Shown one piece after another: positions 9,924 to 22,521 of a DNA stretch of 64,000 bases. This DNA is from an uncultured Flavobacteriaceae bacterium. Its GTDB lineage: Bacteria > Bacteroidota > Bacteroidia > Flavobacteriales > Flavobacteriaceae. The notes below the pieces were generated by a model, which was not told where the DNA came from, searched no databases, and saw only the letters and a list, made by a program, of their open reading frames with translations. Location: the NCBI GenBank assembly GCA_949372605.1, contig CASIAE010000008.1, positions 124,001 through 188,000 on the forward strand, in the 5' to 3' direction. Position numbers and translations under genes: made by a program. Position 1 is the stretch's first letter, and every line of letters begins with the position of its first letter.

Positions 9924-10039
9924 CGAAGGGCTTACTTCACCTGAATTAAACTTCCCTTCAGGCCCTGGTGCAAAATCAATTGGATGAGTCAAAATATTAG
10001 TGACACTCACACTGTTAGAGTGAATTTTTGAACAACAAC
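9808..10039. repeat. Perfect 116-bp tandem duplication
   Basis: Bases 9808-9923 and 9924-10039 are the same over their full 116 bases. The unit covers the join between the sulfatase fragment and the lipoprotein leader. Since 116 is not a multiple of three, the copies read in different frames. Perfect identity suggests a recent event or an assembly artefact. Confidence 0.9.
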
Positions 10040-10138
10040 TGGCTCTGGAGTAACTTGAACAGGTGTTACATCTTCATCACCTCCACCACCACAAGAAATT
10101 AGTATTAAACCTAAAAATAACAATATCAGCTTTTTCAT
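10007..10138 (-). pseudogene. Lipoprotein leader joined to sulfatase DNA
   Basis: A frame of 43 codons starts MKKLILLFLGLILISCGGGG, a clear lipoprotein signal with Cys16, followed by an acidic and Pro-rich linker (TPVQVTPEPVV) and QKFTLTV before a stop. The linker end resembles EKFDLTVSS in the DUF285 lipoprotein at 16735-18585, so this is the N-terminus of a related lipoprotein. Its body has been replaced by the sulfatase fragment. Confidence 0.6.
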
Positions 10139-10179
10139 ATATTTAATTTATCCATACAATTTACAAAACTGTTTTTTAA

Positions 10180-10323
10180 AGCACAGGTTATGCTAATGTA
10201 CTTCTGATTGTAAAAACCAAGTTTGGACTCACAGCAGCTTACGCCTATGACTTTGGAACGCCCAGTGGATCTGCGGCAATCACCACAAGCGGAACAGAAA
10301 TCTTTCTGAAGTTTAAGTTTTAA
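10180..10323 (+). pseudogene. C-terminal fragment of a PorP/SprF-type protein
   Basis: The last 35 codons read FGLTAAYAYDFGTPSG, then TSGTEIFLKFKF and stop. That is the usual C-terminal beta-hairpin and closing strand of PorP/SprF outer-membrane proteins, which anchor gliding adhesins and other proteins exported by the type IX secretion system. Members have about 300 residues; everything before about residue -45 is missing and an in-frame stop lies just upstream. The fragment begins 42 bases from the start of the oppositely oriented lipoprotein leader. It is a remnant. Confidence 0.55.
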
Positions 10324-10362
10324 TATCGAGTCAGATCATCTGATTTAAGCAAAACCACACTC

Positions 10363-10454
10363 CAAGAATTCTATGAGTCATATATCTCTAAACCCCATAT
10401 TTTACTGGGGATAGCTGGGTTCTAATTACCTACTTTTATTTGGGGGTTAAAACC
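10363..10454. repeat. Dispersed repeat R4, copy 1
   Basis: This 92-bp segment recurs at 19929-20020 in the same orientation with about four or five mismatches. It contains the C-rich patches TCTAAACCCC, TTACTGGGGATAGCTGGG and TTATTTGGGGGTTAAAACC. No open frame links the two copies. Function unknown. Confidence 0.85.
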
Positions 10455-10566
10455 TAAAACTCTCAATTAAACCCCACCCTTCAAAATAAGTCTATTTTCC
10501 TTTTGGGGATGTGTTTGTGAAATGGGTATATAACCAAATCCATCTAGGGTTTTTTTATTCGAAAAC

Positions 10567-10580
10567 GTGACATATGTCAC
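10567..10580. promoter_or_regulatory. Palindrome of CRP/FNR-operator type
   Basis: GTGACATATGTCAC is a perfect 14-bp palindrome. The outer GTGA-N6-TCAC agrees with the half-sites bound by CRP/FNR family regulators. It ends 55 bases before the ATG at 10636, with a TATAATTTAG stretch between, so it could be an operator at the promoter of that gene. The match is to a general consensus and the regulator is unknown. Confidence 0.4.
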
Positions 10581-10635
10581 TTTTTAAATGGTTCAATAAT
10601 TATAATTTAGTTTATAAATCATAAATCAATTAAAA

Positions 10636-11376
10636 ATGAAAAAATTATTACTGTTGTTTTTTACTATTACTGTTAACTCCCAAGTTCCCCAATTTGTTGA
10701 AGTTATGGAGTTTACATCTGACGACTCAAGAAAATTAGTTGAAATGTTGAATGACTGGTCTGACATTGAAACTGATGTAACAGGTTATCAAACTTTTGTG
10801 ATGGAAGTCATGAACCTCAACAAGGTATATTTTTGCAGAGGATATGAATCCATGAACCAACTCACAGATAATGGAGCAAAAAGATGGGGAGAAGACGGGT
10901 GGAATCAGAAAGTATGGGATAAATGGAAATTAAAATATCCTTCTGAAAACTCTTTTAACGAGATAAATGCCAATTTTGTGATGAATCACGTCTTTGCTTA
11001 CCTTAAAGATTTGAGCTATATACCTGACAATATAGATTTAGAATCTGAACTTCAAAACATGAAATTTAGAAGAAATGTATTTCTTGACATTAAAAAAGAT
11101 TCGGAATGGAATGATGCAGCTCAAGAATTTGAAGCCATTAATGAAAATAATAAAAAGTTAAAAAATAACTACGTGTCTTTCGTTTATGGCCCTATGTTTG
11201 GCGGTTATGATAATGCAGACTTTCTATTAATAGTTGTAGATAAGTCAAGAGAAAATTATTTTAAAGGTTTAGCTGAAAGAAGCAGAAAAAGAGAGAAAGA
11301 TGAGGAATGGAATGAAATTAAAAATAACAGCGTTTTAAATTGGATAAATGAAGAGCAGATGATGATTCACTATTAG
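10636..11376 (+). CDS. Secreted protein, ferredoxin-fold-like, unknown function
   Basis: The 246-residue product has a short Sec signal (MKKLLLLFFTITVNSQ) and two units of about 100 residues. The first includes VPQFVEVMEFTS and YQTFVMEVMNLNKVYF; the second, NNYVSFVYGPMFGGYDNADFLLIVVD. Each unit has the strand-helix-strand rhythm of dimeric alpha/beta-barrel proteins, but I recognise no family and the second half has a long charged helix (RSRKREKDEEWNE). It has its own terminator and a possible CRP-type operator. The same terminator sequence follows the broken gene at 1823-2390, which may be a distant paralogue. Confidence 0.6.
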   Translation: MKKLLLLFFTITVNSQVPQFVEVMEFTSDDSRKLVEMLNDWSDIETDVTGYQTFVMEVMNLNKVYFCRGYESMNQLTDNGAKRWGEDGWNQKVWDKWKLKYPSENSFNEINANFVMNHVFAYLKDLSYIPDNIDLESELQNMKFRRNVFLDIKKDSEWNDAAQEFEAINENNKKLKNNYVSFVYGPMFGGYDNADFLLIVVDKSRENYFKGLAERSRKREKDEEWNEIKNNSVLNWINEEQMMIHY

Positions 11377-11394
11377 AAAAGTATCAAAGCCTCA

Positions 11395-11420
11395 CCCTCC
11401 CAAGTGGAGGGTTTTTCTTT
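11395..11420 (+). terminator. Rho-independent terminator
   Basis: A stem CCCTCC/GGAGGG with loop CAAGT followed by T5CT4 lies 18 bases after the stop at 11376. Its sequence nearly equals the terminator at 2423-2447. Confidence 0.8.
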
Positions 11421-11726
11421 TACACCAATGGACACAATCCCAAATTCATTCTAATCCATTGATATCATTGCCTTAACCCTGAGATTCCTTTATAGTGGTT
11501 TTAGGGGTTGGTTGTAGGGTTTTGTGTGGATACGTGATGGATGAAAATCTAATACTTTTAAGGCAGCCCTAACCCAAACACAGGGGGGGTAGGTTTTAGA
11601 AAAGGTGCAAAGCACACCACCTAATCCTGGTGAAATGGGTATATAGGCTAATCCCTGCTATTCTCTATTCACTCATAAACCCAAGTTATTTTTTTTATTA
11701 TATTTAAACATCTAATAGTCAGCACC
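11421..11726. other. Intergenic stretch with G-rich patches and a leader copy
   Basis: No gene is seen. The segment 11597-11634 (TAGAAAAGGTGCAAAGCACA) recurs with small changes at 13203-13230, and TGAAATGGGTATATA occurs both here (11632) and at 10518. The last 35 bases are a plus-strand copy of the lipoprotein 5' leader (TATATTTAAACATCTAATAG). Confidence 0.5.
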
Positions 11727-11798
11727 ATGCAAAAGCTACTACTTGTTTTAGGTTTTTTTTTGTTGACTATAAAATGTATTATTGAGCGTCAAGAGTAA
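11727..11798 (+). pseudogene. Orphan lipoprotein signal peptide
   Basis: A 23-codon frame starts MQKLLLVLGFFLLTIKC, a lipoprotein signal ending in Cys17, and stops six codons later. The preceding bases are the leader shared by the lipoprotein genes of this region. The body is missing: its 3' end overlaps the tail of a gene on the other strand. This is the only leader copy in plus orientation. Confidence 0.5.
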
Positions 11799-12069
11799 AA
11801 GTAATCCCATCATTAGATAACTTAACCTGAGTATCTGTAATTGATATTATATCAACGATTTCTTCATCTTCTTGATTACCTAAATAAAACGAAGTGTAAT
11901 CCGAACCAATCCATCTCCAAGAATCAGCATCAACATAAGTTCCTTGGTTGCTTCCAACCCACACGAATGAATACGTACCAAATGCAGAAAAAGAAACAAA
12001 TAAAGAGTTAGCATTAGAACAAATTTCAAACATAAAATCTGTTCTATATATAAGACAGTCGAGAAGCAC
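11779..12069 (-). pseudogene. C-terminal fragment, lipocalin-like lipoprotein
   Basis: About 90 codons end GITFTLDAQ before the stop. The sequence has short alternating strands (TYVDADSWRWIGSDYTSF, DIISITDTQVKLSNDG), which is the pattern of the small lipocalin-like domains common in Bacteroidota lipoproteins (a W-rich strand, then an ITDxxVxLS strand near the end). The first residues (LLDCLIYRTDF) do not form a signal peptide and may come from fused DNA; the leader is absent. The call is structural and weak. Confidence 0.4.
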
Positions 12070-12103
12070 AAAACCCCTATGAGGTTTGTGTTATTGTTTT
12101 GTT

Positions 12104-12132
12104 AAAAAACCCCCTGTTGGAGTCAGGGGGCT
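12104..12132 (-). terminator. Terminator hairpin, repeat R2 copy a
   Basis: A seven-pair stem CCCCCTG/CAGGGGG with loop TTGGAGT has six A on its left, so on the minus strand it reads as a stem followed by T6. It would end transcripts coming from the M23 gene at 12443-13120. The same sequence, with CTTAATTCTAGA on the right, occurs at 13166-13194; a variant occurs at 15873-15898. Confidence 0.75.
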
Positions 12133-12145
12133 TAATTCTAGAATT

Positions 12146-12244
12146 ATGCAGGTGACAGGAATAAAGAGCGTTAAAACGCTTCAGGGGTATATTAAATTCG
12201 ACAAGGAAAGGCTAAATAAGTCTATTATTGATGCTTGGAGTTAA
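12146..12244 (+). pseudogene. C-terminal fragment of a tyrosine integrase
   Basis: A frame of 32 codons reads MQVTGIKSVKTLQGYIKF and continues KERLNKSIIDAW before a stop. This fits the end of phage-type integrases of Bacteroidota: the pattern (I/V)TGHxxxxT.xxYIK with the nucleophile Tyr (here Y15), followed by a C-terminal helix. The usual His after TG is replaced by Ile. Domains before it are absent. It lies between a terminator repeat and an R1 repeat, so it was probably cut by rearrangement. It is direct evidence that a mobile element once lay here. Confidence 0.5.
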
Positions 12245-12286
12245 TATAAGAACTAGAATATTTTAAACTAGCTTTATACAGCCACT

Positions 12287-12413
12287 CTCCCTGTAAATAA
12301 TCATCTAAGATATATTACACTGGTTTCTCGACGAGTGATAATTCTCCAGGTGACATATTTAAGAGGACTAGAAACACCAGAACTTACTGAAGAGGTTGTT
12401 CCTGTGGTTTAAA
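12287..12413 (+). repeat. Dispersed repeat R1, copy A
   Basis: Begins CTGTAAATAATCATCTAAGA and runs through TATATTACACTGGTTTCTCG to the core GAACTTACTGAAGAGG. Copies B (16615-16735) and C (18645-18722, shortened) are in the same orientation; D (20703-20877) is inverted and longer; E (2455-2492) and F (19845-19895) keep only the core. Read as codons the core ends PELTEEVVPVV and a stop, so the repeat may contain the decayed 3' end of a gene. Confidence 0.8.
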
Positions 12414-12442
12414 AGGGTAGTCTAAATAGCCTAATTTAAAAA

Positions 12443-13120
12443 TTAGTATGGTTCGGCTGTATAGCCGTTTGGCATTAATTTAGAATCTAACAATCCAAAA
12501 CAATGTTCAGAAGTATTTTTAAAAGTTATGGGGATTGAATTACAAAAATACCGGATATAGTTTGGGCGGTCATCTGTATCTTCGCATTCCGTTAATGCTT
12601 GCATTACTTGAAAATGAAGATGTGGTCCTGTTGTATAGCCAGTGTTTCCAGAAAGTGCAATGATTTCTCCTTGAATAACTGAATCACCCTCATTTTTTAG
12701 CGCTCCATTTAAAGTCAAATGTACATATTGGGCTTCAGTCCCATCATCGTGTTTTACAGTAATATAGTTTGCTTCGTCCGCAAGACCAACCGTTCCAGGT
12801 TCGAGGTCTTCAAAGCTCTCAATAACCTTACCAACTATTCCTGACCTCATAGCGACTATGTTTGTTCCTATTGGCATATTTATATCATAAGCAAATTGAA
12901 GTTGGCCCAAACTATGTGAACCCTCTGTACAATTACCCTGACCAATAGAAAAGGTTTTTCCTGTTTCCCAAGGAAGAACATATGGGGAATCAGAATTTTT
13001 AACATAGTCTGCACCTTGGCAATTAACACCTAAATCTGAGTCCGCACAAAGATTTTCTTCATCTTTTGAACAAGCATAAATCAACAAAAAAAGACTTAAA
13101 ACAAGTAGTAGCTTTTTCAT
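12443..13120 (-). CDS. M23-family metallopeptidase lipoprotein
   Basis: Probable zinc peptidase acting on peptidoglycan or surface proteins. The 225-residue product has the shared lipoprotein leader (MKKLLLVLSLFLLIYACSKD, Cys17) and one LytM/M23 domain over residues 50-175. The zinc ligands are in place: His69 and Asp79 in SHSLGQLQFAYDI, and GPHLHF (His167, His169), with YVHL (His134) as the further active-site His. About 50 residues follow with two Cys. The body is unlike the other two lipoproteins with the same leader (16061 and 16735). A terminator repeat lies upstream and another downstream. The promoter was not identified. Confidence 0.85.
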   Translation of the reverse strand: MKKLLLVLSLFLLIYACSKDEENLCADSDLGVNCQGADYVKNSDSPYVLPWETGKTFSIGQGNCTEGSHSLGQLQFAYDINMPIGTNIVAMRSGIVGKVIESFEDLEPGTVGLADEANYITVKHDDGTEAQYVHLTLNGALKNEGDSVIQGEIIALSGNTGYTTGPHLHFQVMQALTECEDTDDRPNYIRYFCNSIPITFKNTSEHCFGLLDSKLMPNGYTAEPY

Positions 13121-13165
13121 AGTGTTGGTTATTAGATGTTTAAATATAGGGAAATATAATTAGTA

Positions 13166-13194
13166 TAAAAAACCCCCTGTTGGAGTCAGGGGGC
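13166..13194 (-). terminator. Terminator hairpin, repeat R2 copy b
   Basis: Same stem CCCCCTG/CAGGGGG and loop TTGGAGT as at 12104, with A7 on the left, so it works for minus-strand transcripts arriving from 13.3-13.7 kb. It lies immediately upstream of the leader of the M23 gene and so would insulate it. Confidence 0.75.
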
Positions 13195-13230
13195 TTAATT
13201 CTAGAAAAGGTGGAAAGCACATCACCTAAT

Positions 13231-13335
13231 CCAGAGAATGAGTATTAAAATTAAAAGTGCAGTCGAAGAAGTGTCGGTTGAGTGATTTAAATTAAGAGTG
13301 TCACCAACAGTTGCGGATATTTCAGAAAACACCTA
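13231..13335. repeat. Dispersed repeat R3, copy 1
   Basis: This 105-bp segment recurs at 19248-19352 with three mismatches (about 97 percent). On the minus strand both copies keep an open frame: GTG start, then FSEISATVGDTLNLNH, and a hydrophobic segment TALLILILILW. In this copy the frame (13222-13332, 36 codons) begins right at the stop of the gene at 13333. Matching frame and few changes suggest a mini membrane protein or the tail of one. Confidence 0.8.
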
Positions 13336-13422
13336 GTCTTTCCATTTAAAGAACTCATCTAAACTCATTTTAGGCTCGTCTTCGTTTACTGGATTCGGAT
13401 CAATTTCTATAGATTTCATCGT
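13330..13422. repeat. Dispersed repeat R5, copy 1
   Basis: This 93-bp segment recurs at 15951-16043 with one mismatch. It covers the last 30 codons of the gene at 13333-13605 (MKSIEIDPNPVNEDEP ... FFKWKD). Confidence 0.85.
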
Positions 13423-13605
13423 AGGGTGTACGTACTTCCGTAGCTCATTTTTTAACCTCTGCCGTTCATAGGGAGACATTGTATCAAGATCTGAAAAATC
13501 TCGCTCAGTCTTATAGGCAAGTAAATATGCAATGTGTTTTTTTAGATCTTCAGATACATTGAATTTATTCTTACTACCCTTGGGGCGACCTCGCCCACTT
13601 ATCAA
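13333..13605 (-). CDS. Small GRGRPKGSKNK protein, phage-like, probably 5'-truncated
   Basis: About 86 residues start with GRGRPKGSKNKFN, an AT-hook-like basic motif, followed by a helical part (VSEDLKKHIAYLLAYK, MSPYERQRLKNELRKYVHP) and an acidic tail ending SLDEFFKWKD. Small proteins with this layout (RGRPKGSxNK, then two helices, then YV.P) are frequent in prophages and mobile regions of Flavobacteria; their role is not known to me. Only a TTG start exists and a stop lies right before it, so a few N-terminal codons are missing; the preceding 13574-13744 frame overlaps it. Its last 30 codons are duplicated at 15951-16043. Confidence 0.5.
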   Translation of the reverse strand: MISGRGRPKGSKNKFNVSEDLKKHIAYLLAYKTERDFSDLDTMSPYERQRLKNELRKYVHPTMKSIEIDPNPVNEDEPKMSLDEFFKWKD

Positions 13606-13744
13606 TCAATGTTGAGGTGAGTAGTGAATATGTTCGTATAAATGTGGTGTAATTCCAGTTGTACATATTTGCATATTCATTTGAAACTCGAAGTCTATTT
13701 TCATCTATAACACCATCTCTAGATACTTTATTTGTGTTTTTCAT
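13574..13744 (-). pseudogene. 56-codon chimeric frame, unknown
   Basis: The frame starts MKNTNKVSRDGVIDENRLRV and continues NEYANMYNWNYTTF before running out of frame into the start of the GRGRPKGSKNK gene. I recognise no family. The first 45 codons look like real coding sequence; the last ones are the next gene read in another frame, so the two were joined by a deletion or an indel. Confidence 0.35.
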
Positions 13745-13816
13745 TACTTAGAAATTTTGTTGCTTAAATAAATTGTGAGGTAAACGACAGGCCTCCAGAT
13801 AACCAGATCTTAATTT

Positions 13817-13999
13817 TCAGATACTTACAATTAAAACTATTAACCCTACTATCGTTCGGGAATTGCGAGTACCTGTTTTTACCCTTTCTCTATATATACT
13901 ATATGATTTTAGAAAATTTATTGGGTCAAGAAATTCTGACATGTTATTAACAAATAGCATAAATTGGATAGCTGGGGGACTTACAAGCTCAACTTTCAC
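13817..13999 (-). CDS. Fragment or small protein, unknown
   Basis: A 60-codon frame with a GTG start; the same frame stays open to 14036, giving YTKKEPVKVELVSPPAIQF before the middle part and a hydrophobic end TIVGLIVLIVSI. There is no good start and no known family. It begins right after the stop of the glycoside hydrolase-like gene at 14037, so it may be the tail of a lost gene. Confidence 0.25.
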   Translation of the reverse strand: MKVELVSPPAIQFMLFVNNMSEFLDPINFLKSYSIYRERVKTGTRNSRTIVGLIVLIVSI

Positions 14000-14036
14000 T
14001 GGCTCCTTCTTAGTATAACGAGTTTGATAGACTTGA

Positions 14037-15650
14037 TCAGTATTTGTTTTTAATTTTTAAATAAAGCACCCAATCGCCTGGACCAGGTGCAATCAGATTT
14101 GACAGCCCCCCTTTTATGATTTCTGTATCTGTCCAGATTCCTGTTTCCGGATCGAACCATTTAAGTGAAAACTGAGCAATGGGAAGAGAGACAGAAACTG
14201 CTGGGATCGTTATATTCTCATTGGCATTCCTAATTTCCGCACTTTTTATTTTTGGAGACTCGGGTAAGCCAATGGTATCAGGATTAGCAACGTAAATAAT
14301 ATATTCATTCTTGTTGTGAATACATTTAAATTGTTGGGGACTATTTCCAACGATTTTATCATTGGGGGACATATTTACAAGAGTAAGTCCGGTTTCATTA
14401 AAAAATTTGTGAATGTTATTAAAATCATTTGCACCTTCCAAACCAATATTAAAGTAACCTTGCATGCCTTTAATGCTATCATTATCATAGGCTTCAAAGG
14501 TTTTTATTCCTCCATAAGTGGCATGACCTCCTGATAAGAGTGACGCCCACATTAAACGGCGGTAAAAGTAGCGGGGATATTCCGGCTCGCGATATCTCTC
14601 ATAACGATCCTCATCATTTACAATAGGGTCTGATCCAATTACACGATATTTAGCTATTGTTCTGCCATCAATCTCATCCAAACTTTCAAATGTAATTATA
14701 TCTGACCACTCAGAATCTATAAACGAATACCCCATAAACCGAGATTGGTGATTGGTAATTAATGTTTTCCAAGGTTCTCTGCGGACCATATCCAATCCAA
14801 TCTTGTCAATATTCTTATCAAGAATTCTTCTTTCGGTAAGTTTTACACTTTCGGATACAATCTCCCTATCATTAGATATACACCAAATAATATTTGGATA
14901 GGCTGAAAACCTGGCTTGTGCATATCGTAGCATTGAAAATGAAAGTGAATCACCAGCAAAGTATCTTTTTAATTCATCCGTATCTTCTCCGAATGGAATT
15001 AATTGCAAAATTATTTCCGGATAGTTTTCGAAGGCAAAAGCGATTCTTCTATCCATTTCCTGCCAATAAGTAAGATTGAGTGAAGTTCGTTCATCGTTAA
15101 AAAGTGCCTCAACGTTGCTCCTCGACCTACAAAACCATGTTCGTATTTTTGTAAATCCCAACCGCCCAGCATGATCGATGTACTCCTGCCATTTCTGTTC
15201 GGTATCAGTCAAATATCGATAACCTGTATCACCAATATGTAAAAACCAATCACCATTGTGGTAAGAAAACTGAAACGGATCTTCAGCATTTATTTGAAGT
15301 TTTCCTCTAAGGGATGATTCTTTTACCTCAAAACCTCCTTTCTTCCTTTTAAAAGTATCATCTCCCTTTAGTTCCCATTTATAATGTCCAATTTGATTGC
15401 AGTAAACCCTGACCTTATAATTTTCTCCATCATAAAAACCATCTACTTTTACTTTATTTCCGTTTGGTTGAGTAAAAATGACTTCGGGAAACAAGAATCT
15501 GGTTTGAGATTTTGATTCAAATGAAATTTCTAACATACCAAATTTTTTGTAATAGGGCAGATTGCTTGCATTAACCTGCGATGCTGCAAACATCAAAAAC
15601 AATATAGGGTATATTAGTTGAGCGTAATTCCGGATAATTATACGAATCAT
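14037..15650 (-). CDS. DUF5060/DUF4038 glycoside hydrolase-like protein (GH140-type)
   Basis: Probable secreted enzyme on branched plant or algal glycans. The chosen ATG at 15650 gives a clear signal peptide (MIRIIIRNY, then LIYPILFLMFAASQVNA); a longer frame reaches 15719 but adds 23 residues without signal features. An Ig-like DUF5060 domain (about residues 30-120, with GFYDGENYKVRVYCNQIGHY) precedes a TIM-barrel of the DUF4038/apiosidase-like type: FLHIGDTGYRYL, then TKIRTWFCRS, PNIIWCISNDRE and MGYSFIDSEWSD. A small C-terminal sandwich follows. It sits among shuffled fragments, with an orphan lipoprotein leader directly upstream (15723-15815). Substrate unknown; family assigned from the order of blocks. 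Confidence 0.75.
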   Translation of the reverse strand: MIRIIIRNYAQLIYPILFLMFAASQVNASNLPYYKKFGMLEISFESKSQTRFLFPEVIFTQPNGNKVKVDGFYDGENYKVRVYCNQIGHYKWELKGDDTFKRKKGGFEVKESSLRGKLQINAEDPFQFSYHNGDWFLHIGDTGYRYLTDTEQKWQEYIDHAGRLGFTKIRTWFCRSRSNVEALFNDERTSLNLTYWQEMDRRIAFAFENYPEIILQLIPFGEDTDELKRYFAGDSLSFSMLRYAQARFSAYPNIIWCISNDREIVSESVKLTERRILDKNIDKIGLDMVRREPWKTLITNHQSRFMGYSFIDSEWSDIITFESLDEIDGRTIAKYRVIGSDPIVNDEDRYERYREPEYPRYFYRRLMWASLLSGGHATYGGIKTFEAYDNDSIKGMQGYFNIGLEGANDFNNIHKFFNETGLTLVNMSPNDKIVGNSPQQFKCIHNKNEYIIYVANPDTIGLPESPKIKSAEIRNANENITIPAVSVSLPIAQFSLKWFDPETGIWTDTEIIKGGLSNLIAPGPGDWVLYLKIKNKY

Positions 15651-15722
15651 TGGTTTAAAATTAATCTTAAATATCTGATTTGAAAAATTTATAGCGAACA
15701 TAGTTCGGTCACAGTACAAGAA

Positions 15723-15815
15723 CTATTCAGTTCCGTTCAAGTTACAATAATCCCGGCCATATAGCCCAAAATAAATCACTGGGACAAACAAAAATATAAT
15801 TAGTAGCTTTTTCAT
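15723..15815 (-). pseudogene. Orphan lipoprotein leader
   Basis: A 30-codon frame starts MKKLLIIFLFVPVIYFG after a copy of the shared 5' leader (ATTATTTGATATTTAAATAT on the plus strand). It has no Cys at the usual lipobox place and stops after LNGTE. The glycoside hydrolase-like gene follows downstream on the same strand with its own signal peptide, so this leader has lost its body. Confidence 0.5.
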
Positions 15816-15872
15816 AATGTTGATTATTTGATATTTAAATATATGAAAAGATAATTAAGATAAATCTATCAT

Positions 15873-15898
15873 AAAAAAACCCTGTTGGAGTCAGGGGG
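15873..15898 (-). terminator. Terminator hairpin, repeat R2 copy c
   Basis: Stem CCCTG/CAGGG with loop TTGGAGT and A7 on the left; a shorter relative of the hairpins at 12104 and 13166. It lies downstream of the lipoprotein gene at 16061-16555 on the minus strand. Confidence 0.65.
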
Positions 15899-15950
15899 AC
15901 CAGATGTAAAGGGGTGACTACACAAACAGATTGTCGAGTTTGGGTGAAAT

Positions 15951-16043
15951 CACCTAGTCTTTCCATTTAAAGAACTCATCTAAACTCATTTTAGGCTCGT
16001 CTTCGTTTACTGGATTCGGATCAATTTCTACAGATTTCATCGT
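15951..16043. repeat. Dispersed repeat R5, copy 2
   Basis: Same as 13330-13422 except for one base. It encodes the last 30 codons of the GRGRPKGSKNK protein with no gene in front of it, so it is a pure gene tail placed downstream of the lipoprotein gene at 16061. Confidence 0.85.
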
Positions 16044-16060
16044 TATGATTTTGTTTTTGG

Positions 16061-16555
16061 TTAATATTGAATAGGTATTACTTTAAGTTCATTTGAACCG
16101 AAAAACATATCTCCAATTAACTTAACTGTTTCTTTTGTTATTTTTTCCTCTGAAGTACTATTTTTCAATGGGAATTCAGTTAAATCCATCGAAATTAATT
16201 TATTCTCTTTTTGATTAATATGAATTGCCGTGTAAAAGTGATAACGTAGTATTCTCTCTAAGGTTATTTTAGTTCCAGGATAATATTTTTGAAACCCATC
16301 TAAACTTTTAAATGTAGTTTTTAATACTCTATAACGTCTGTTAAGCCCTAGTTCTTCTTTTAGGCGAAGAGGCTCATACTTATTAGTTGAATCCTGAGAG
16401 TTTCCTTGAGCTGATAAAGCTAAATCAAATTTTTCTACTGTGGTTGATGTGCTATTATTAGACGAATCTGAGGATGGCGGGGGTCCTGCATCTAAATCCT
16501 TTCCACAAGCACAAATCAGTAAAAAAAGACTTAAAACAAGTAGTAACTTTTTCAA
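16061..16555 (-). CDS. Lipoprotein with shared leader, unknown body
   Basis: The 164-residue product has the shared leader MKKLLLVLSLFLLICACGKD (Cys17), nearly the same in DNA as that of the M23 gene. A Ser/Thr/Asn-rich linker follows with TVEKFDLALS, which matches TVEKFDLTVS in the DUF285 lipoprotein next door, and then a body without known family (YEPLRLKEELGLNRRYRVLK, then LERILRYHFYTAIHI). The body has alternating strands and one helix. So it shares its first 45 residues or so with one neighbour and its leader with others. R1 copy B lies directly upstream and may carry the promoter. Confidence 0.6.
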   Translation of the reverse strand: MKKLLLVLSLFLLICACGKDLDAGPPPSSDSSNNSTSTTVEKFDLALSAQGNSQDSTNKYEPLRLKEELGLNRRYRVLKTTFKSLDGFQKYYPGTKITLERILRYHFYTAIHINQKENKLISMDLTEFPLKNSTSEEKITKETVKLIGDMFFGSNELKVIPIQY

Positions 16556-16614
16556 AGTGTTAGTTATTAGAAGTTTAAATATAGGGAATAATTTAAACTA
16601 GCCTAAAGCATCAA

Positions 16615-16735
16615 CTCTCACTGTAAATAATCATCTAAGATATATTACACTACTTTCTCTACGAGTGATTATTCTCCACCTGACATATTTAAGAGGACTA
16701 AAAATGTCAGAACTTACCGAAGAGGATATGCCTGT
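16615..16735 (+). repeat. Dispersed repeat R1, copy B
   Basis: Same layout as copy A (CTGTAAATAATCATCTAAGA to GAACTTACCGAAGAGG). Its right end touches the stop codon of the DUF285 gene; its left end touches the leader of the lipoprotein gene at 16061-16555. Read on the plus strand the core gives SELTEEDMPVIEP and a stop. Confidence 0.8.
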
Positions 16736-18585
16736 TATTGAACCATAATAGTTCCGACCATCCCTCCGTGAAGTGAACACTGATAATAATATGTTCCAGT
16801 TGTAGTTGGTGTCCAGCTTATAGTGTTGTTAGTTGTTCCATTGTTATCTAAACCGCTTATGGTATCTCCTGTTCCTGTTCCTGCAACTGTTTTTAAATAA
16901 AATGGATGACCCGCTGCACTAACGTTAAAATTAATGGCGTCTCCAACTTTAAAAGTTAAGTTAGGGTCGTTTCCTGACACATTACCATCTCTATCAGTTC
17001 CGCTTAGTGTGTAATTAGCACTGCTTGTTGCTGTTACATCTATACTAAAGACAGTTTCCACTTGGTTTGAGTCGGTTGAGTCCGTTGCTGGACAAGTTCC
17101 CCAAACTGGTTTATTGGCATCTGTTAGGGCCATTGTTGTTCTTGCATTGTCAAGCGAGAATTCGAATGGTTCTGTAGTAATATTTGTTACGCACCAACCC
17201 GATAAGTCCTGATTAAATACATCTAAATCCTTAAACATTCTGCTCATTTCAGTAACTGCTGCAGTATCCCAAGAGCCTATGTCTTGATTAAATGTCATTA
17301 GGCTTTCAGAGTTATACGTCCAAATTGGAGAAGCAGAAAACATATAACTCATATCAGTAACTGCTGAAGTATTCCAAGAACCTATATTTTGATTAAAGGC
17401 ATTAGCGATTTGAAACATAAAACTCATATCAGTAACTGCTGAAGTATTCCAGGAACTTATATTTTGATTAAAGGCATTAGCGTATTGAAACATACCGCTC
17501 ATATCAGTAACTGCTGCAGTATTCCAAGAGCTTATATTTTGATTAAATGCTGTGGCAGTTTCAAACATATAACTCATATCAGTAACTGCTGTAGTAATCC
17601 AATTTCCTATGTCTTGATTAAATGCTGTTGCCTCTTCAAACATAAGCTTCATATTAGTAACTTCTGAAGTATCCCAATTTCCTATTTCCCCATTGAAAGC
17701 CGTTGCACCTGAAAACATACCACCCATATCAGTAACTTTAGAAGTACATACACAAGTAACGTCTTCACTTTTTGCAATCATATCCGTGAGATTAGCTTTG
17801 TCAACTACGGTATATTCCTTTCCATTAACAGTTTCTTTGTCTCCAACCTCAGCATAAGGGCATTTTATAGTTACTCCGTTGGAGGCTAAAAATATTTTAG
17901 TCGTCAGTGGGTCAGTATTTTCATCATAAGTATCATCTTTATTTCCTTTGGCATCCTCATTACAGATATCATTTAATTCAATGGAGAAACTCACAAGACT
18001 ATTTGTGATTATAAGATTGGTAATCATCCCAATATTTGAGTTTTCTTTAGTAAGGTTAATTTTAGTACTTGACTCAATCAAGAATTGACCTGTAATTGAT
18101 GATGTCGAGGTTACTACAGTAAAGGTTTCGTTTTTACGAAAAACAATACTTAATATATTGCATTCAGCTTTAGAAGAAGAACTGCCATTACTTCCAAATG
18201 ACCAATTACCAAATAGCGCATCAGGCTGTGAACTTACATCAATGATTTGTTCAAAGTTTGCCTTTATCGTTTTGGACTCATCCATAACTAAGCTAAGCGA
18301 GTTATTGACACTTGTAATACTCCCAGACCAGCCAGTGAAAAGATATCCATCTGTGGGAGTTGCTTTAACTGTAACTGATGAATTAGAGTCATAAGAACCC
18401 CCAGAGGTATCAACACCTCCACCCTCGGAAGACGATACAGTTAAATCAAATTTTTCTACTGTGGGTACTTCAGTATTGTTACTCGTATTGTCAGTTGGAT
18501 TTGATGGGGGAGTTGCTGCTTCTGAGTCTTTTCCACAAGCATAAATCAATACAATGATACTTAAAATAAGAATGAGCTTTTTCAC
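16735..18585 (-). CDS. Surface lipoprotein: InlB-type, DUF285 (BspA) repeats and cupredoxin
   Basis: The 616-residue product has the shared leader (MKKLILILSIIVLIYACGKD, Cys17). Next is an InlB-type beta repeat at about 44-112 (GYLFTGWSGSI, KTIKANFE), then a sandwich region at 115-225. Seven DUF285/BspA-type repeats follow at about 285-475, each of the form VTDMSYMF ... AFNQNISSWN. The last 110 residues form a cupredoxin-like domain in which His560 (GHPFYL) and Cys603, His606, Met609 (QCSLHGGM) give a full type 1 copper site. DUF285 repeats occur on cell surfaces; their partners are mostly unknown. No type IX sorting domain is seen. R1 copy C lies upstream. The combination with a copper domain is unusual. 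Confidence 0.85.
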   Translation of the reverse strand: MKKLILILSIIVLIYACGKDSEAATPPSNPTDNTSNNTEVPTVEKFDLTVSSSEGGGVDTSGGSYDSNSSVTVKATPTDGYLFTGWSGSITSVNNSLSLVMDESKTIKANFEQIIDVSSQPDALFGNWSFGSNGSSSSKAECNILSIVFRKNETFTVVTSTSSITGQFLIESSTKINLTKENSNIGMITNLIITNSLVSFSIELNDICNEDAKGNKDDTYDENTDPLTTKIFLASNGVTIKCPYAEVGDKETVNGKEYTVVDKANLTDMIAKSEDVTCVCTSKVTDMGGMFSGATAFNGEIGNWDTSEVTNMKLMFEEATAFNQDIGNWITTAVTDMSYMFETATAFNQNISSWNTAAVTDMSGMFQYANAFNQNISSWNTSAVTDMSFMFQIANAFNQNIGSWNTSAVTDMSYMFSASPIWTYNSESLMTFNQDIGSWDTAAVTEMSRMFKDLDVFNQDLSGWCVTNITTEPFEFSLDNARTTMALTDANKPVWGTCPATDSTDSNQVETVFSIDVTATSSANYTLSGTDRDGNVSGNDPNLTFKVGDAINFNVSAAGHPFYLKTVAGTGTGDTISGLDNNGTTNNTISWTPTTTGTYYYQCSLHGGMVGTIMVQ

Positions 18586-18644
18586 AATGCTGATTATTAA
18601 ACACTTAAATATAGGGAATAATTTAAACTAGCCTTAATCAGCTA

Positions 18645-18722
18645 CTCTACCTGTAAATAAACATCTAAGATATATTACACTGCTTTCTCTACGAGTGATA
18701 ATTCTCCAGGTGACAGATTAAA
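18645..18722 (+). repeat. Dispersed repeat R1, copy C (shortened)
   Basis: Matches copies A and B from CTGTAAATAAACATCTAAGA to CTCCAGGTGACAGATTAA, then ends; the ELTEDDMP core is missing. It lies directly upstream of the leader of the DUF285 lipoprotein gene. Confidence 0.75.
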
Positions 18723-18732
18723 TGAGACGTTA

Positions 18733-19103
18733 ATGGAAAAATATATTCCCTTGGTTTTTACTGTTAATTTATTTTTAACTTGTTTTCTAAAAACAACTTG
18801 AACTTGGAAACAAATCAATTCGAACAAATAATAAAGGAATCTATTGAACTTAGTTTAAACGACTTTTATCACGAAAAAGTTGTGCCTCTTGAAAAAGAAA
18901 TAATAAAACTTGGTGGAAAATTGCCTACAGCTTCGAAGGACATTGAATTTAAATTATTTCAATATAGACCCTTGGACCCATTTTTAGAATCAAAAAATAT
19001 AATACACCACTGGGAAAATGAACATAGCGATTATTTTAAATTCTTTAAGTCTCTTTTTGAAGAGTGTTTCGAGAGAAGTTGGGTATGTATAGTTCCTCCT
19101 TAA
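18733..19103 (+). pseudogene. Possible small lipoprotein, frameshifted, unknown
   Basis: An ATG at 18733 starts MEKYIPLVFTVNLFLTC, a lipoprotein-like signal, which ends after FLKTT. The long frame in the next phase (TTG start only, 18780) reads NLETNQFEQIIKESIELS and LFQYRPLDPFLESK and is rich in charged helix. One indel near 18780-18790 would join them into a lipoprotein of about 120 residues. The end (SWVCIVPP) meets a fragment read from the other strand, so it may be truncated. No family recognised. Confidence 0.4.
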
Positions 19104-19125
19104 ATTCCTTACCAACGGATATAAA

Positions 19126-19258
19126 TCAAAACCCTTCTAATCCATTCAGTAACGGAAGAAATCCTCCTTTACTAACATCAGGAGTGCCAAACCACTTTTT
19201 ATATGGACGATCGTTACGAACCTTATCTAGAAGAATGGCTAAATCGTCCAGAGAATAA
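19126..19258 (-). pseudogene. C-terminal gene fragment, unknown
   Basis: On the minus strand an open frame of about 43 codons reads YSLDDLAILLDKVRNDRPYK, then WFGTPDVSKGGFLPLLNG, and stops. It looks like real coding sequence but has no start: its upstream side is repeat R3. The family is unknown. Confidence 0.35.
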
Positions 19259-19352
19259 GTATTAAAATTAAAAGTGCAGTCGAAGTAGTGTCGGTTGTGT
19301 GATTTAAATTAAGAGTGTCACCAACAGTTGCGGATATTTCAGAAAACACCTA
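19248..19352. repeat. Dispersed repeat R3, copy 2
   Basis: Same as 13231-13335 except three bases; the minus-strand frame with the hydrophobic segment is kept here too. The left end joins a gene fragment and the right end lies ten bases before the start of a plus-strand membrane protein gene. Confidence 0.8.
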
Positions 19353-19361
19353 AAATCAATT

Positions 19362-19772
19362 ATGAATTTAAAATCTTTACCTTTAGTAGTAAAGAGTCAC
19401 GGTATTGCCGCTATGGCTTTTGCACTAAGTTTCTTTTTAGAAGCTTATGAAATTCACCTCCCATTACTTTCCATTAAAGCACAGCATCCAAGTCTTATGC
19501 TAAATGAATTTGCTTTTATAGGTCTTCTTTTTGCAGGAGCAGGAACATTGACATTTGCCTCATACGAAATTTTCTTAATTCCAAAATTTTTGAAAACACT
19601 TGAAATAGGAAGTTCTTTTCGTAAAAGGGCTAAAAGCATATTTACTATTTACCATATAGTGTGGTGTATTGCGGTAACAATTCTTGTGCTGTTACCAAGT
19701 GCGTCACCAGCTGCATATATAAATATTTTTGTGATGTATGGATTTACCTTTTGGGGATTGATTTCAAAATAA
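19362..19772 (+). CDS. Membrane protein, unknown
   Basis: The 136-residue product starts at an ATG and has hydrophobic segments at about residues 13-30, 46-65, 93-112 and 115-133, so probably four helices with a basic loop (GSSFRKRAKSIF) in the middle. I do not recognise the family. It is the only intact-looking plus-strand gene in the mosaic zone, and the R3 repeat ends just before it, so its promoter may lie in the repeat. Confidence 0.55.
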   Translation: MNLKSLPLVVKSHGIAAMAFALSFFLEAYEIHLPLLSIKAQHPSLMLNEFAFIGLLFAGAGTLTFASYEIFLIPKFLKTLEIGSSFRKRAKSIFTIYHIVWCIAVTILVLLPSASPAAYINIFVMYGFTFWGLISK

Positions 19773-19844
19773 ATAAGTCAATCCTTGACAATCAATGTAA
19801 CTTATTTTGGTGTCGTGCAAAGGTGTCTCAGATTTTCTAACAAT

Positions 19845-19895
19845 AGGCATATCATCTTCAGTAAGTTCTAGTATTTCTAGTCCTCTTAAACAGGT
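19845..19895 (-). repeat. Dispersed repeat R1, core copy F
   Basis: Minus strand reads AGAGGACTAGAAATACTAGA and the core GAACTTACTGAAGATGATAT. Only the core end of R1 is kept, inverted relative to copies A-C. Confidence 0.7.
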
Positions 19896-19928
19896 CAAAC
19901 TGAGGTTTATAGCTGCCTTTTATATGCC

Positions 19929-20020
19929 CAAGAATTTAATTAGTCATATATCTCTAAACCCCCTATTTTACTGGGGATAGCTGGGTTCTAATTACCTACT
20001 TTTATTTGGGGGTTAAAACC
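19929..20020. repeat. Dispersed repeat R4, copy 2
   Basis: Second copy of the 92-bp segment at 10363-10454, same orientation, four or five mismatches clustered in the first 20 bases and near base 33. Confidence 0.85.
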
Positions 20021-20181
20021 AGTGGGCAGGGGTAAACCCGCGTCTCAGAGTGTCTTGAGCTAGTTTGACTCACTCAAAAGGTGTAAACCTGTTACACGTT
20101 ACAGTATAAATTTACCACAGAGGTTAACGATAAATTACAGAAAGTAATGATGAGGATGCTTAAAAGCTAGATATTGATTAT

Positions 20182-20364
20182 GTGACCAAAGAACAGAAAA
20201 TAAAAATGCTCCAGAGAGAGCTTCATTACTTGCTCCCCAAACTAAAGCACGAGTCAAATGAAAAGGATATTTTAGACCAACTATTGTTTATTGGCATCGT
20301 AATAAGAGATGAAGAAAAAAGTGGATGGAAGTCAGATATTAGACCGTTACCAATTAAAGATTAA
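20182..20364 (+). CDS. 60-residue soluble protein, unknown
   Basis: A 60-codon frame with a GTG start. The product is rich in charge and helix (VTKEQKIKMLQRELHYLLPK, then NEKDILDQLLFIGIVI), and ends IRPLPIKD. The even charge pattern and normal codon use suggest a real small gene, though the start is not ATG and no clear ribosome site was seen. No family is recognised. It lies alone between repeats and the tRNA gene. Confidence 0.4.
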   Translation: MTKEQKIKMLQRELHYLLPKLKHESNEKDILDQLLFIGIVIRDEEKSGWKSDIRPLPIKD

Positions 20365-20570
20365 TAAAGGGTGGTAACCTGTTACAGATTTCAGCAAAAA
20401 ATTAAAACGGTATTGCTTTACTTTATGGAAACTAATATTATATTTGCCCAAGTTTGTTGAAATTCTGAAATGCACTTTTAAGAAATACGTAAAAAAATAC
20501 GTAAAACCTGATATTTGAAAGTCATTAATTCATCTTAAAAGCTCTGAAAAGTATTAATTTTATTACATAA

Positions 20571-20644
20571 GGTCGCGTAGCTCAGCTGGATAGAGCATCT
20601 GCCTTCTAAGCAGACGGTCACAGGTTCGAATCCTGTCGCGATCA
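20571..20644 (+). tRNA. tRNA-Arg(TCT)
   Basis: Full cloverleaf of 74 bases. The acceptor stem GGTCGCG pairs with CGCGATC (one G-U), the D-arm is GCTCAGCTGGATAGAGC, the anticodon stem TCTGC/GCAGA encloses loop CTTCTAA with anticodon TCT at 20605-20607, and the T-arm is CACAGGTTCGAATCCTGTC-like. The discriminator is A and no CCA is encoded. It marks the right-hand edge of the mosaic zone; no att-type duplicate of its 3' end was found in the window. Confidence 0.96.
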
Positions 20645-20678
20645 CAGATTAAAAAATTCTAAGGCTTTTAAAAACAAT

Positions 20679-20706
20679 CCCTCACATTGATATGAGGGTT
20701 TTTTAT
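20679..20706 (+). terminator. Rho-independent terminator after tRNA-Arg
   Basis: Stem CCCTCA/TGAGGG with loop CATTGATA followed by six T, 35 bases after the tRNA. Confidence 0.8.
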
Positions 20707-20877
20707 TTCAATTCAGACATATCCTCTTCAGTAAAGTTCGAGTATTTCTAGTCCTATTAAGTAAGTTAGACAAATATTTCTATTTGAATTATTATGGAAC
20801 GACAGGGGGAGAATCATGACTCGTAAAGAATCCAGTGTAATATATCTTTGATGATTATTTACAGGGAGAGTGAGTTA
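20703..20877 (-). repeat. Dispersed repeat R1, copy D (inverted, long)
   Basis: On the minus strand it starts CTCTCCCTGTAAATAATCAT and reaches AGATATATTACACTGG as in copy A, then has about 50 extra bases before GGACTAGAAATACTCG and the core, in which one T is inserted. So this is the longest copy, and copies A-C may be deletion derivatives, or the extra part was inserted. Confidence 0.7.
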
Positions 20878-21000
20878 TTAAGAGTTTTTCAGAACCTTCA
20901 ATATTTCACCTAAAAGATCAGATTGTTGCTTTAAATGCTTTAAAATTTCTCTGTCAGTTATTTTTTGTTCAATGGTTCTTGTTTTGTTAAAATATTTCAT
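20878..21000 (-). CDS. 40-residue helical protein, unknown
   Basis: An ATG-started 40-codon frame gives MKYFNKTRTIEQKITDRE and then ILKHLKQQSDLLGEILKVL. The second half has hydrophobic residues at heptad spacing, so a single amphipathic helix or short coiled coil is likely. No family is known to me. Its stop codon touches the end of R1 copy D. The gene is too short for certainty but its codon use and clean start support it. Confidence 0.4.
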   Translation of the reverse strand: MKYFNKTRTIEQKITDREILKHLKQQSDLLGEILKVLKNS

Positions 21001-21091
21001 AATTAATTGAGTTAATATTGTTTAAATTTATAAGATATAATTAAACTTAATGTAATAAAAATATTTTAAGTGTTTGTAAAATAGAAAAGAC

Positions 21092-21545
21092 ATGAACCAA
21101 ACCCTTTTTAAGATTAGCATATTCACTTTTTTCAAACTTCCTGCTGCATGGTGGACAGGAGTTCGGGTAACTGAAATTAATAATACTTTTTGTGAGGTTT
21201 CTGTAAGACATCGCTGGATCAATCAAAATCCATTCGGTTCTATGTTCTGGGCGATACAGGGAATGGCAGCAGAATTGTCTACAGGAGTTTTTTTTATCTG
21301 GTCAATTAAATCGAGTAAAGTTCCAGTATCCATGCTTGTGTTGAAAAACAAAGCGATTTTCAAAAAGAAGGCAAAGGGGTTAATTCGCTTTAAATGCGAC
21401 CAAGGTGAAGATGCGGTTGCCGCAATAAACAAAACGATTGATACTGGGGAACCTATACTTATAAAAATGAAATCGAGTAGGAACTGATAGCAGTGGTGAC
21501 GTCGTTTCTGAATTTGAATTTGAATGGACATTAAAACGAAAATAA
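21092..21545 (+). pseudogene. DUF4442 hotdog thioesterase-like gene, frameshifted near its end
   Basis: Hotdog-fold protein of the PaaI/YiiD-like DUF4442 family, which probably acts on acyl thioesters. The first 125 codons read KLPAAWWTGVRVTEIN, then RHRWINQNPFGSMFWAIQGM, which are the family's substrate-pocket stretches. At about 21468-21474 the frame breaks; the next phase reads RVGTDSSGDVVSEFEFEWTL and ends KRK at 21545, which is the normal final strand. The stop abuts the ATG of the next gene, so the two form an operon. The indel removes only the last 20 residues, so activity may remain, or it is a sequencing error. Confidence 0.75.
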
Positions 21546-22521
21546 ATGAATAAAGATTATTTTAAATCACTTGAACTACCCGTAATTGCAGCTCCGATGT
21601 TTCTAATTTCTGGACCAGAATTGGTGATAGAATGTTGTAAAAATGGAATTGTTGGTACATTTCCAGCTTTGAATCATAGAACGACCGAAGGTTTTGAGCA
21701 ATGGGTCATCCAAATAAAGGATTCTCTTGCTGCTTTTGAAGCGGAAACAGGTGAAAAGGCAGCACCTTTCGGAGTTAACCTTATTGTACACGCCACGAAC
21801 ATGCGTGTTCAGGCTGATCTTGAAATTTGTGTGAAACATCAAGTTCCTTTAATTATAACTTCTTTGGGCAGCGGTAGCTCAGTTGGTTGATGTGGTCCAC
21901 AGCTATGGTGGCTTGGTTTATCATGACGTCATCAAAAGACGTCATGCTGAAAAAGCTGCTGAAGTAGGAGTAGATGGTCTCATTCTTGTTGCCGCTGGGG
22001 CAGGAGGACACGCAGGTACTTTACATCCTATTGCGTTGATTAATGAGATAAAAAAGTTTTTTAATAAAACAATTCTTTTGTCTGGTTGTTTAAGTACCGG
22101 GAATGACGTCGCAAGTGCAATGCAGATGGGTGCTGATATGGCTTATATGGGAACACGATTCATCAATGTAAAGGAAAGTATGGCTGATGAGGAGTATCAA
22201 AAAATGATTGTAGAGAGTTCTGCTGAAGACATTATCTATACTGCTGCAGTTTCTGGAGTTCATGCAAGTTTTTTAAGACCCAGCCTTGAGGCAATGGGCG
22301 TGACGGAAGACAAATGGAAACAGTCTAAAAAGATTGACTTTGGAAGCGAATTGGATGCGGCTAAGGCTGAAGCAAAAGCCTGGAAGACCATTTGGTCTGC
22401 TGGTCAAGGTGTAAGTGCAATTAAAGAGACACTTCCTGTTGCGAGTTTGGTACGCCAATTAAAAAAAGAGTTCATTGCCGCAATTAAAGAACAACAAAAA
22501 CTATTAGAGGTTTATAAATAA
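21546..22521 (+). pseudogene. Nitronate monooxygenase (NPD family), frameshifted
   Basis: FMN enzyme that oxidises alkyl nitronates. The first frame (to 21890) has the phosphate- and flavin-binding start PVIAAPMFLISGPELV, then GTFPALNHRT. The second (from 21883) has HDVIKRRHAEKAAEVGVDG, GLILVAAGAGGHAG and MGADMAYMGTRFI, all standard for class I NMO. They join if one base is removed at 21867-21870, giving LGAVAQLVDVVHSYGG. Joined length is about 324 residues, the usual size. It starts one base after the DUF4442 stop. Either recent decay or a base-calling error. Confidence 0.85.

Follow-up and report, generated by a model that had tools for sequence, protein, structure and literature searches.

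A Flavobacteriaceae lipoprotein with seven DUF285 repeat units carries a complete type 1 copper ligand set in a predicted cupredoxin fold

In type 1 sites the copper ion is tightly bound and enclosed, and rusticyanin from Acidithiobacillus (PDB 1rcy, 2cal), one of the described proteins closest to the domain reported here, is a soluble periplasmic protein. The domain forms the C-terminus of a lipoprotein with DUF285 repeats, which is encoded in a window of 64,000 nucleotides from an uncultured Flavobacteriaceae bacterium (GenBank assembly GCA_949372605.1, contig CASIAE010000008.1, positions 124,001 to 188,000). With rusticyanin it shares the cupredoxin fold (Z 9.4-10.9 over 95-96 residues), the four aligned ligands and a GTYYY-C run, whereas rusticyanin has a Cys-x4-His-x4-Met loop, a longer N-terminus and no repeat fusion. 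Amicyanin, plastocyanin and pseudoazurin likewise have the fold and the ligand set in common with the window protein, and amicyanin in addition the Cys-x2-His-x2-Met spacing and the loop length; in plastocyanin and amicyanin, however, a proline precedes the first histidine, while in the window protein the proline follows it (GHPFY). The repeat part has its described counterpart in the PARCEL/DUF285 surface lipoproteins, which also consist of 25-residue tandem units with highly variable repeats (PMC2996958). Unlike the window protein these are presented without a copper domain, and the word 'copper' occurs zero times in the main text of that article (PMC2996958). As far as our searches show, the combination of DUF285 repeats with a cupredoxin is new as described and built from known parts; neither a fusion of this kind nor a phage-tail cupredoxin was found in open-licence PMC papers, among the matches listed.

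A sequence-only reading of the window had placed one open frame at 16735-18585 without naming a strand. This frame is borne out on the minus strand (Table 1), the plus strand of the same interval being full of stops, and the residues that had been named as copper ligands at positions 560, 603, 606 and 609 read exactly His, Cys, His and Met. A full-length model (m6908fcca72e1), built from 26 sequences, reached a mean pLDDT of 81 and a pTM of 0.54. Inspection by eye and our own lipobox scan agree on a cysteine at position 17, which is predicted to be lipidated and is followed by GKDSE. In the model a beta domain spans residues 45-113, confidence is low at residues 16-40 and 115-138, and a loose linker at residues 501-508 lies between the repeat solenoid and the cupredoxin. 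The lipocalin-like family DUF4923 was matched in four of 42 family members at E up to 0.01 and, at that threshold, not in the window protein. That the protein has seven BspA-type repeats, as had been proposed, agrees with a score of 238.6 bits for DUF285 (PF03382; cut-off 25) and with units starting at residues 284, 309, 334, 359, 384, 409 and 444. The solenoid resembles LRR-like proteins, with Z 9.5 and rmsd 6.0 for a Bacteroides surface protein (4fdw) and Z 9.2 and rmsd 3.9 in the comparison with 5xwt; the label 'BspA-type' is therefore a fair one.

Table 1. Features of the copper-domain lipoprotein gene and its upstream region, in window coordinates
Feature	Position	Strand	Basis or remark
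Lipoprotein gene, 616 aa	16735..18585	minus	GTG start at 18585, stop 16735-16737
Lipoprotein signal peptide, residues 1-17	18535..18585	minus	...LIYAC17; lipobox scan; model helix 2-15
Divergent InlB B-repeat domain PF18998 (Flg_new_2), residues 48-114	18244..18444	minus	53.6 bits, cut-off 23.6
Seven-stranded beta domain, residues 144-215	17941..18156	minus	model m6908fcca72e1
DUF285/PARCEL array, residues about 274-470, seven 25-residue units	17176..17766	minus	Pfam; DNA repeats, 75-nt spacing
Cupredoxin domain, residues 509-616, C-terminus	16738..17061	minus	model mff4e818c1178, pLDDT 96.2; VIA; Foldseek
His560 codon, first copper ligand (predicted)	16906..16908	minus	conservation, residue check, rusticyanin alignment
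Cys603 codon, copper ligand (predicted)	16777..16779	minus	conservation, residue check, rusticyanin alignment
His606 codon, copper ligand (predicted)	16768..16770	minus	conservation, residue check, rusticyanin alignment
Met609 codon, axial copper ligand (predicted)	16759..16761	minus	conservation, residue check, rusticyanin alignment
Dispersed leader repeat, directly upstream of the gene	18616..18772	minus	copies 16586-16742, 12256-12412; alignment A4

The C-terminal cupredoxin domain that the sequence-only reading had postulated is weakly seen by family models and strongly by predicted fold and conservation. PF00127 (Copper-bind) remains below its cut-off of 21.2 with 16.5 bits for the whole protein and 20.6 for the domain alone, the amicyanin model TIGR02657 is not reached (22 bits, cut-off 110.2), and neither is TIGR02656 by the window protein. 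The structure prediction that had been put forward as a check of the C-terminal domain returned a cupredoxin fold with a pLDDT of 96.2 and a pTM of 0.89 when the domain was modelled alone. The predicted fold is the Greek-key fold of type 1 copper proteins: the 50 structural matches shown are cupredoxin domains of copper proteins with Z 9.1-11.0, among them the one at the N-terminus of nitrite reductase from Hyphomicrobium (Z 11.0 over 92 residues, 1.9 Angstrom) as well as laccases and other multicopper oxidases. The four ligand residues (His, Cys, His, Met) follow each other in the order and place of a type 1 copper site. In a profile alignment with rusticyanin, the four window residues align with the His, Cys, His and Met ligands of that protein; the rusticyanin sequence used agrees over its stretch 103-151 with the reference bar one residue (N vs D), at which the deposited chains also differ. 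An alignment with amicyanin puts His560 two places off the His of amicyanin, and the same residue coincides with the first His of pseudoazurin and rusticyanin. Since the window domain has only two histidines, the rusticyanin/pseudoazurin alignment was followed over that with amicyanin. The structural match, the strand order and the rusticyanin alignment speak against a predicted fold in which the four residues lie far apart. On the whole, the domain probably holds copper in a site of type 1. The description that is supported is that of a full type 1 ligand set, predicted to lie in a cupredoxin fold, on a lipoprotein whose repeat part has seven units of DUF285.

The full ligand set was seen in 53 of 54 complete genome-contig copies, the sole exception being a degenerate extra copy in locus L078, in 82 of 97 complete copies from viral contigs and in all eight copies from six phage loci; for distinct complete copies the values are 52/53, 60/70 and 8/8, respectively. 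Partial copies (35 viral, four from genome contigs, two from the protein search) were left out. As the peptide patterns used to recruit the genome and viral loci include the ligand-bearing GHPFYLKT and YYYQCSLH, these counts lean towards retention. The bias is offset by counts from pattern-free copies: Cys, His and Met are kept by 34 of the 35 distinct genome-contig copies that lack YYYQCSLH, and the first His by six of the seven that lack GHPFYLKT; the corresponding viral numbers are 54 of 64 and 45 of 48. A chance motif is ruled out, because 53 of 54 complete genome-contig copies have the four ligands and these are kept even where the search patterns did not force them. Genome loci found by protein search retain all four ligands in 12 of 16 complete copies; three of these 12 repeat genome-contig copies, and the new copies keeping all four are nine of 13. 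Of the remaining four, L125, L126 and L127 score LCHM, ICHM and QCHM on account of their classical Pro-His order, and in L132 Lys replaces Met. The losses among the 97 complete viral copies read HSAM (seven), YCYY (five), HCHQ (two) and RCYY (one). A wider viral scan, whose patterns held C, H and HPFY, covered the best 80 of at least 579 confirmed stretches (of 600) and found all four ligands in 85 of 91 complete distinct copies among the matches listed, at loci that overlap those recruited earlier by patterns.

Alignment A1 comprises the window protein and 69 of 112 distinct copies, chosen only from those that keep all four ligands, so that its invariant ligand columns reflect the selection of sequences; alignments A2 (window protein and 41 of 53 frames) and A3 (window protein and 25) derive from the same list. 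Against nine relatives the copper domain has a dN of 0.13-0.30 and a dS of 0.94 to saturated (L051: dN 0.13, dS 1.0), and by this measure it is under purifying selection.

According to the record names, 52 of the 54 genome-contig loci belong to Bacteroidota and two (L100, L101) to Alphaproteobacteria, and the same names point to a marine origin of the genome-contig relatives. Within the family, 14 of the 149 genomes gave a match to the copper domain (E up to 0.001), three of these matches (G063, G098, G105) being weak and of the classical Pro-His type. With another query and cut-off, raw matches were obtained in 25 of 395 genomes of the class. DUF285 occurs in 52 of the 149 family genomes, nine of which also hold the copper domain (14 copper-domain vs 52 DUF285 genomes; hypergeometric P 0.019); once the three matches of classical type are set aside, eight of 11 are shared (P 0.009). 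Both values ignore kinship, and the link between copper domain and DUF285 across the 149 genomes is weak.

Among 42 family proteins scanned with Pfam at E up to 0.01 (41 of 53 frames plus the window protein), Copper-bind was matched in 24, Flg_new_2 in 23, DUF285 in nine, the window protein included, and He_PIG in six. The search for other fusions of DUF285 and cupredoxin, which the sequence-only reading had suggested, thus yielded eight of 41 other family proteins scanned, that is at least eight proteins besides the window protein. Its remark that surface repeat proteins rarely carry a redox cofactor stood in part: both domains lie in one reading frame in at least two of the 149 family genomes (the own genome and contig C6 of G099), and nine of the 42 copper-domain proteins scanned carry DUF285. 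The DUF285-carrying copper-domain proteins include, by pattern count, AG-430-N14 (L058) and AG-914-G02 (L064, L065), presumably names of single-cell genomes. An assembly chimera was considered and ruled out, because the frame is without stop and the fusion with DUF285 recurs. Among the 51 genome-contig copies in a stop-closed frame, 45 have the domain ending no more than five residues from that stop. Where the N-terminal side of a frame was closed, our own scan detected a lipobox in 32 of 39 cases, one hit (L097) being spurious. The module is found mostly at the C-terminus of Bacteroidota lipoproteins, and the finding of a copper-domain lipoprotein is real and recurrent. A function of the cupredoxin as a sorting domain, which had also been considered in view of its frequent C-terminal position, is opposed by the internal copies in L061, L062, L097, L100 and L101. 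To judge from its sequence, L061 appears to have a separate sorting domain at its end; Por_Secre_tail was matched once among the 42 family proteins, and we infer that this match belongs to L061.

The surface-export signal of Capnocytophaga lipoproteins (LES) is given as C-X-K-(D/E)2-X, with acidic variants in Flavobacterium and Bacteroides (PMC5080379). CGKDSE in the window protein does not match the strict motif, a consensus from Capnocytophaga, and fits it in part only: Lys (+3) and Asp (+4) agree with it, and Ser (+5) departs from it. The strict motif fits five of 32 family lipoboxes. Surface exposure of the window protein is plausible. PARCEL tracts are described as variable (PMC2996958). 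In the nearest record, L050:3136-5154 from MAG FRAM18_bin214, the N-terminal, middle and copper parts are 99% identical to the window at the DNA level, and the DUF285 tract shows 76% identity over aligned bases, with 168 bases more, 14 fewer and several frame changes. This difference may reflect true variation or decay, or else an assembly in which variants are mixed. A contig of the own genome has, separately from the copper protein, a cluster of DUF285 stretches (C4:96735-97883), of which some contain stop codons.

A leader of about 150 bp, dispersed in the genome, precedes MKKLLL-type lipoprotein genes and an unrelated membrane-protein gene (L106); the wider query 18530-18735 has ten matches in the own genome. 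The leader may be a shared promoter or 5' UTR element. An RNA element was considered and rejected, as no Rfam match was obtained there at the gathering threshold; at positions 10000-22000 the only such match is a tRNA at 20571-20644. Three neighbouring lipoproteins, an M23 peptidase-like protein, one without family and the 616-aa copper-domain protein, have start regions and signal peptides that are mutual copies (13056-13153, 16491-16588 and 18521-18618). A further repeat of 98 nt is found at 13325-13422 and 15946-16043 with 98% identity, its first copy overlapping a 90-aa frame of the GRPKGSKNK type. The overlapping frames 21546-21890 and 21883-22521 look like one frameshifted gene of the nitronate-monooxygenase type.

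Short stand-alone cupredoxin lipoproteins of 140-160 residues are encoded in L060, L085, L086, L087, L088, L091 and L092. In L087 and L091 (MAGs SAT168 and SP282) the gene for a cupredoxin lipoprotein of 156-158 residues is followed about 30 bp on by that for a Rieske lipoprotein (PF00355, 29 bits, cut-off 20.3), and both are part of a conserved run of cupredoxin lipoprotein, Rieske lipoprotein, membrane protein and YceI (L087:4860-7018, L091:4869-7032). Next to this run, on the other strand, a rhodopsin-like frame can be read from the sequence. The L087 and L091 proteins resemble the window protein in carrying the same domain on a lipid anchor and differ from it in that repeats are absent and a Rieske lipoprotein gene adjoins; the L087 protein passes the cut-off of PF00127 (26.3 vs 21.2). 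The divergently oriented neighbour is a Flavodoxin_2 gene in L085, L086 and L088 and a gene for a fumarate-reductase-type flavoprotein in L092; no obvious redox gene stands beside the stand-alone copy in L079, L094 and L095. The neighbours of the window gene scanned with Pfam (an M23-peptidase lipoprotein, an apiosidase-like gene and two without family) include no redox gene, and a Rieske gene of the L087 type was not found in the own genome, which is 70% complete.

By analogy, the redox genes beside the stand-alone relatives favour a function of the window protein in electron transfer. The protein would be anchored by a lipid at Cys17, followed by a disordered linker, the InlB-B-like beta domain and the second beta domain; the DUF285 repeat solenoid would serve as a stalk, and the C-terminal cupredoxin would hold one copper ion via His560, Cys603, His606 and Met609. 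Cycling between Cu(I) and Cu(II), this copper would allow one-electron transfer at or near the cell surface, the electrons being exchanged with a partner redox protein or with an outside oxidant or reductant. Copper binding, an outward-facing position in the outer membrane and electron transfer itself are elements that we infer, and the explanation as a whole, electron transfer at the surface by a copper-tipped outer-membrane lipoprotein, is put forward tentatively, at a little under an even chance. Several observations speak against electron transfer at the surface: PF00127 remains below its cut-off, the redox neighbours are those of relatives and not of the window gene, the stand-alone copies of L079, L094 and L095 lack an evident redox neighbour, the export signal fits in part only, and phages, in which there is no electron chain, retain the four ligands as well, in some cases in proteins annotated as tail fibre.

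The domain is encoded in 55 of 50,697 phage records (Synechococcus 38, Prochlorococcus 13, marine virus 3, Actinomycetia 1). The carrier in P-SSM2 is annotated as 'putative T4-like proximal tail fiber' and the others as subtilisin-like protease/peptidase S8, as 'tail fiber' (Bellamy) or as hypothetical protein. Among the PHROG profiles, phrog_677 ('baseplate wedge tail fiber protein connector') is matched by the window domain over positions 306-408 of its 412, and further matches are phrog_15006 (tail fiber) and two PHROGs of unknown function; the best match of the domain in a viral structure library has a TM of 0.95 at 0.9 Angstrom and 51% identity. The cyanophage proteins of phrog_677, phrog_15006 and phrog_9158 (e.g. 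P-SSM2 AAX44675.1) contain the same domain, located at the C-terminus in the phrog_677 and phrog_9158 profiles and with the full ligand set in the six phage loci, but unlike the window protein they are without lipid anchor or DUF285 as far as they were read. Cupredoxin domains with four ligands were seen in phage proteins of L133-L138 and on the viral contigs L012-L049 and L139-L218. On the basis of annotation the phage carriers are taken as virion parts and, a virion being without electron chain, the domain need not serve respiration. In a tree of viral and bacterial copies (118 columns, 30 of 67 inner branches open) the starred branches force at least four changes of label, which suggests an exchange of the domain between viruses and bacteria, without direction.

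It is worth weighing that bound copper might lock the fold or make a docking face at the end of the stalk, in which case the same module would have a structural or adhesive role in bacterial surface proteins and phage tail fibres alike. Such a tip, possible but in our view rather unlikely, would be in keeping with the position of the domain near the stop in 45 of 51 closed genome-contig frames, with its fusion to adhesin-like parts (Flg_new_2 in 23, DUF285 in nine and He_PIG in six of 42 proteins), and with the match to phrog_677 and the four ligands in all eight phage-locus copies. Docking, however, does not need a full redox-competent His-Cys-His-Met set, and stand-alone lipoproteins exist, some of them beside redox genes. 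A related and equally doubtful proposal is that a single tip module with copper is passed around in surface seawater, its carriers being lipid-anchored surface proteins in Bacteroidota and, in T4-like cyanophages, virion proteins of the tail-fibre, baseplate-connector and subtilisin-like kinds. Since the module is kept with an intact His-Cys-His-Met site, its copper would on this proposal be used outside any electron chain, either to aid docking or folding or in a redox reaction where cells touch each other or a virus touches a cell; on the side of the bacteria, the single strain pair compared differs in the DUF285 stalk and hardly in the copper domain.

Catching or buffering of copper at the surface, in which the domain would bind copper that is scarce or toxic outside the cell and either hand it on or hold it off, appears improbable: in L060 a DUF411 gene, which we assume to be linked to copper, is located about 1.4 kb away from the stand-alone cupredoxin lipoprotein, but a tight, closed type 1 site suits storage poorly. 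Iron-binding domains have been proposed on a marine phage tail fibre (PMC11705849), which lends this role some credit, yet no copper transporter or chaperone is present among the five window proteins scanned with Pfam. That the cupredoxin fold is kept for its shape only, with no copper in vivo, is very unlikely, for although PF00127 falls short of its cut-off, ligands are missing from some viral copies and L132 has Lys for Met, the four ligands are present in 53 of 54 complete genome-contig copies and are kept in pattern-free ones too, and proteins without a need for copper would be expected to lose them. Electron transfer at the cell surface is thus the explanation that we prefer, at the tentative level stated above.

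The window protein points to a family of copper domains that would be displayed by marine Bacteroidota, most of them uncultured, and by marine phages, and that curated copper models miss or score weakly, PF00127 reaching E 0.01 in only 24 of 42 members. Should copper not be bound, the near-perfect retention of four ligands would need another reason. If copper is bound, surface repeat proteins and phage tails would carry a redox-competent metal centre, and a testable question would arise on copper, contact and infection in seawater.
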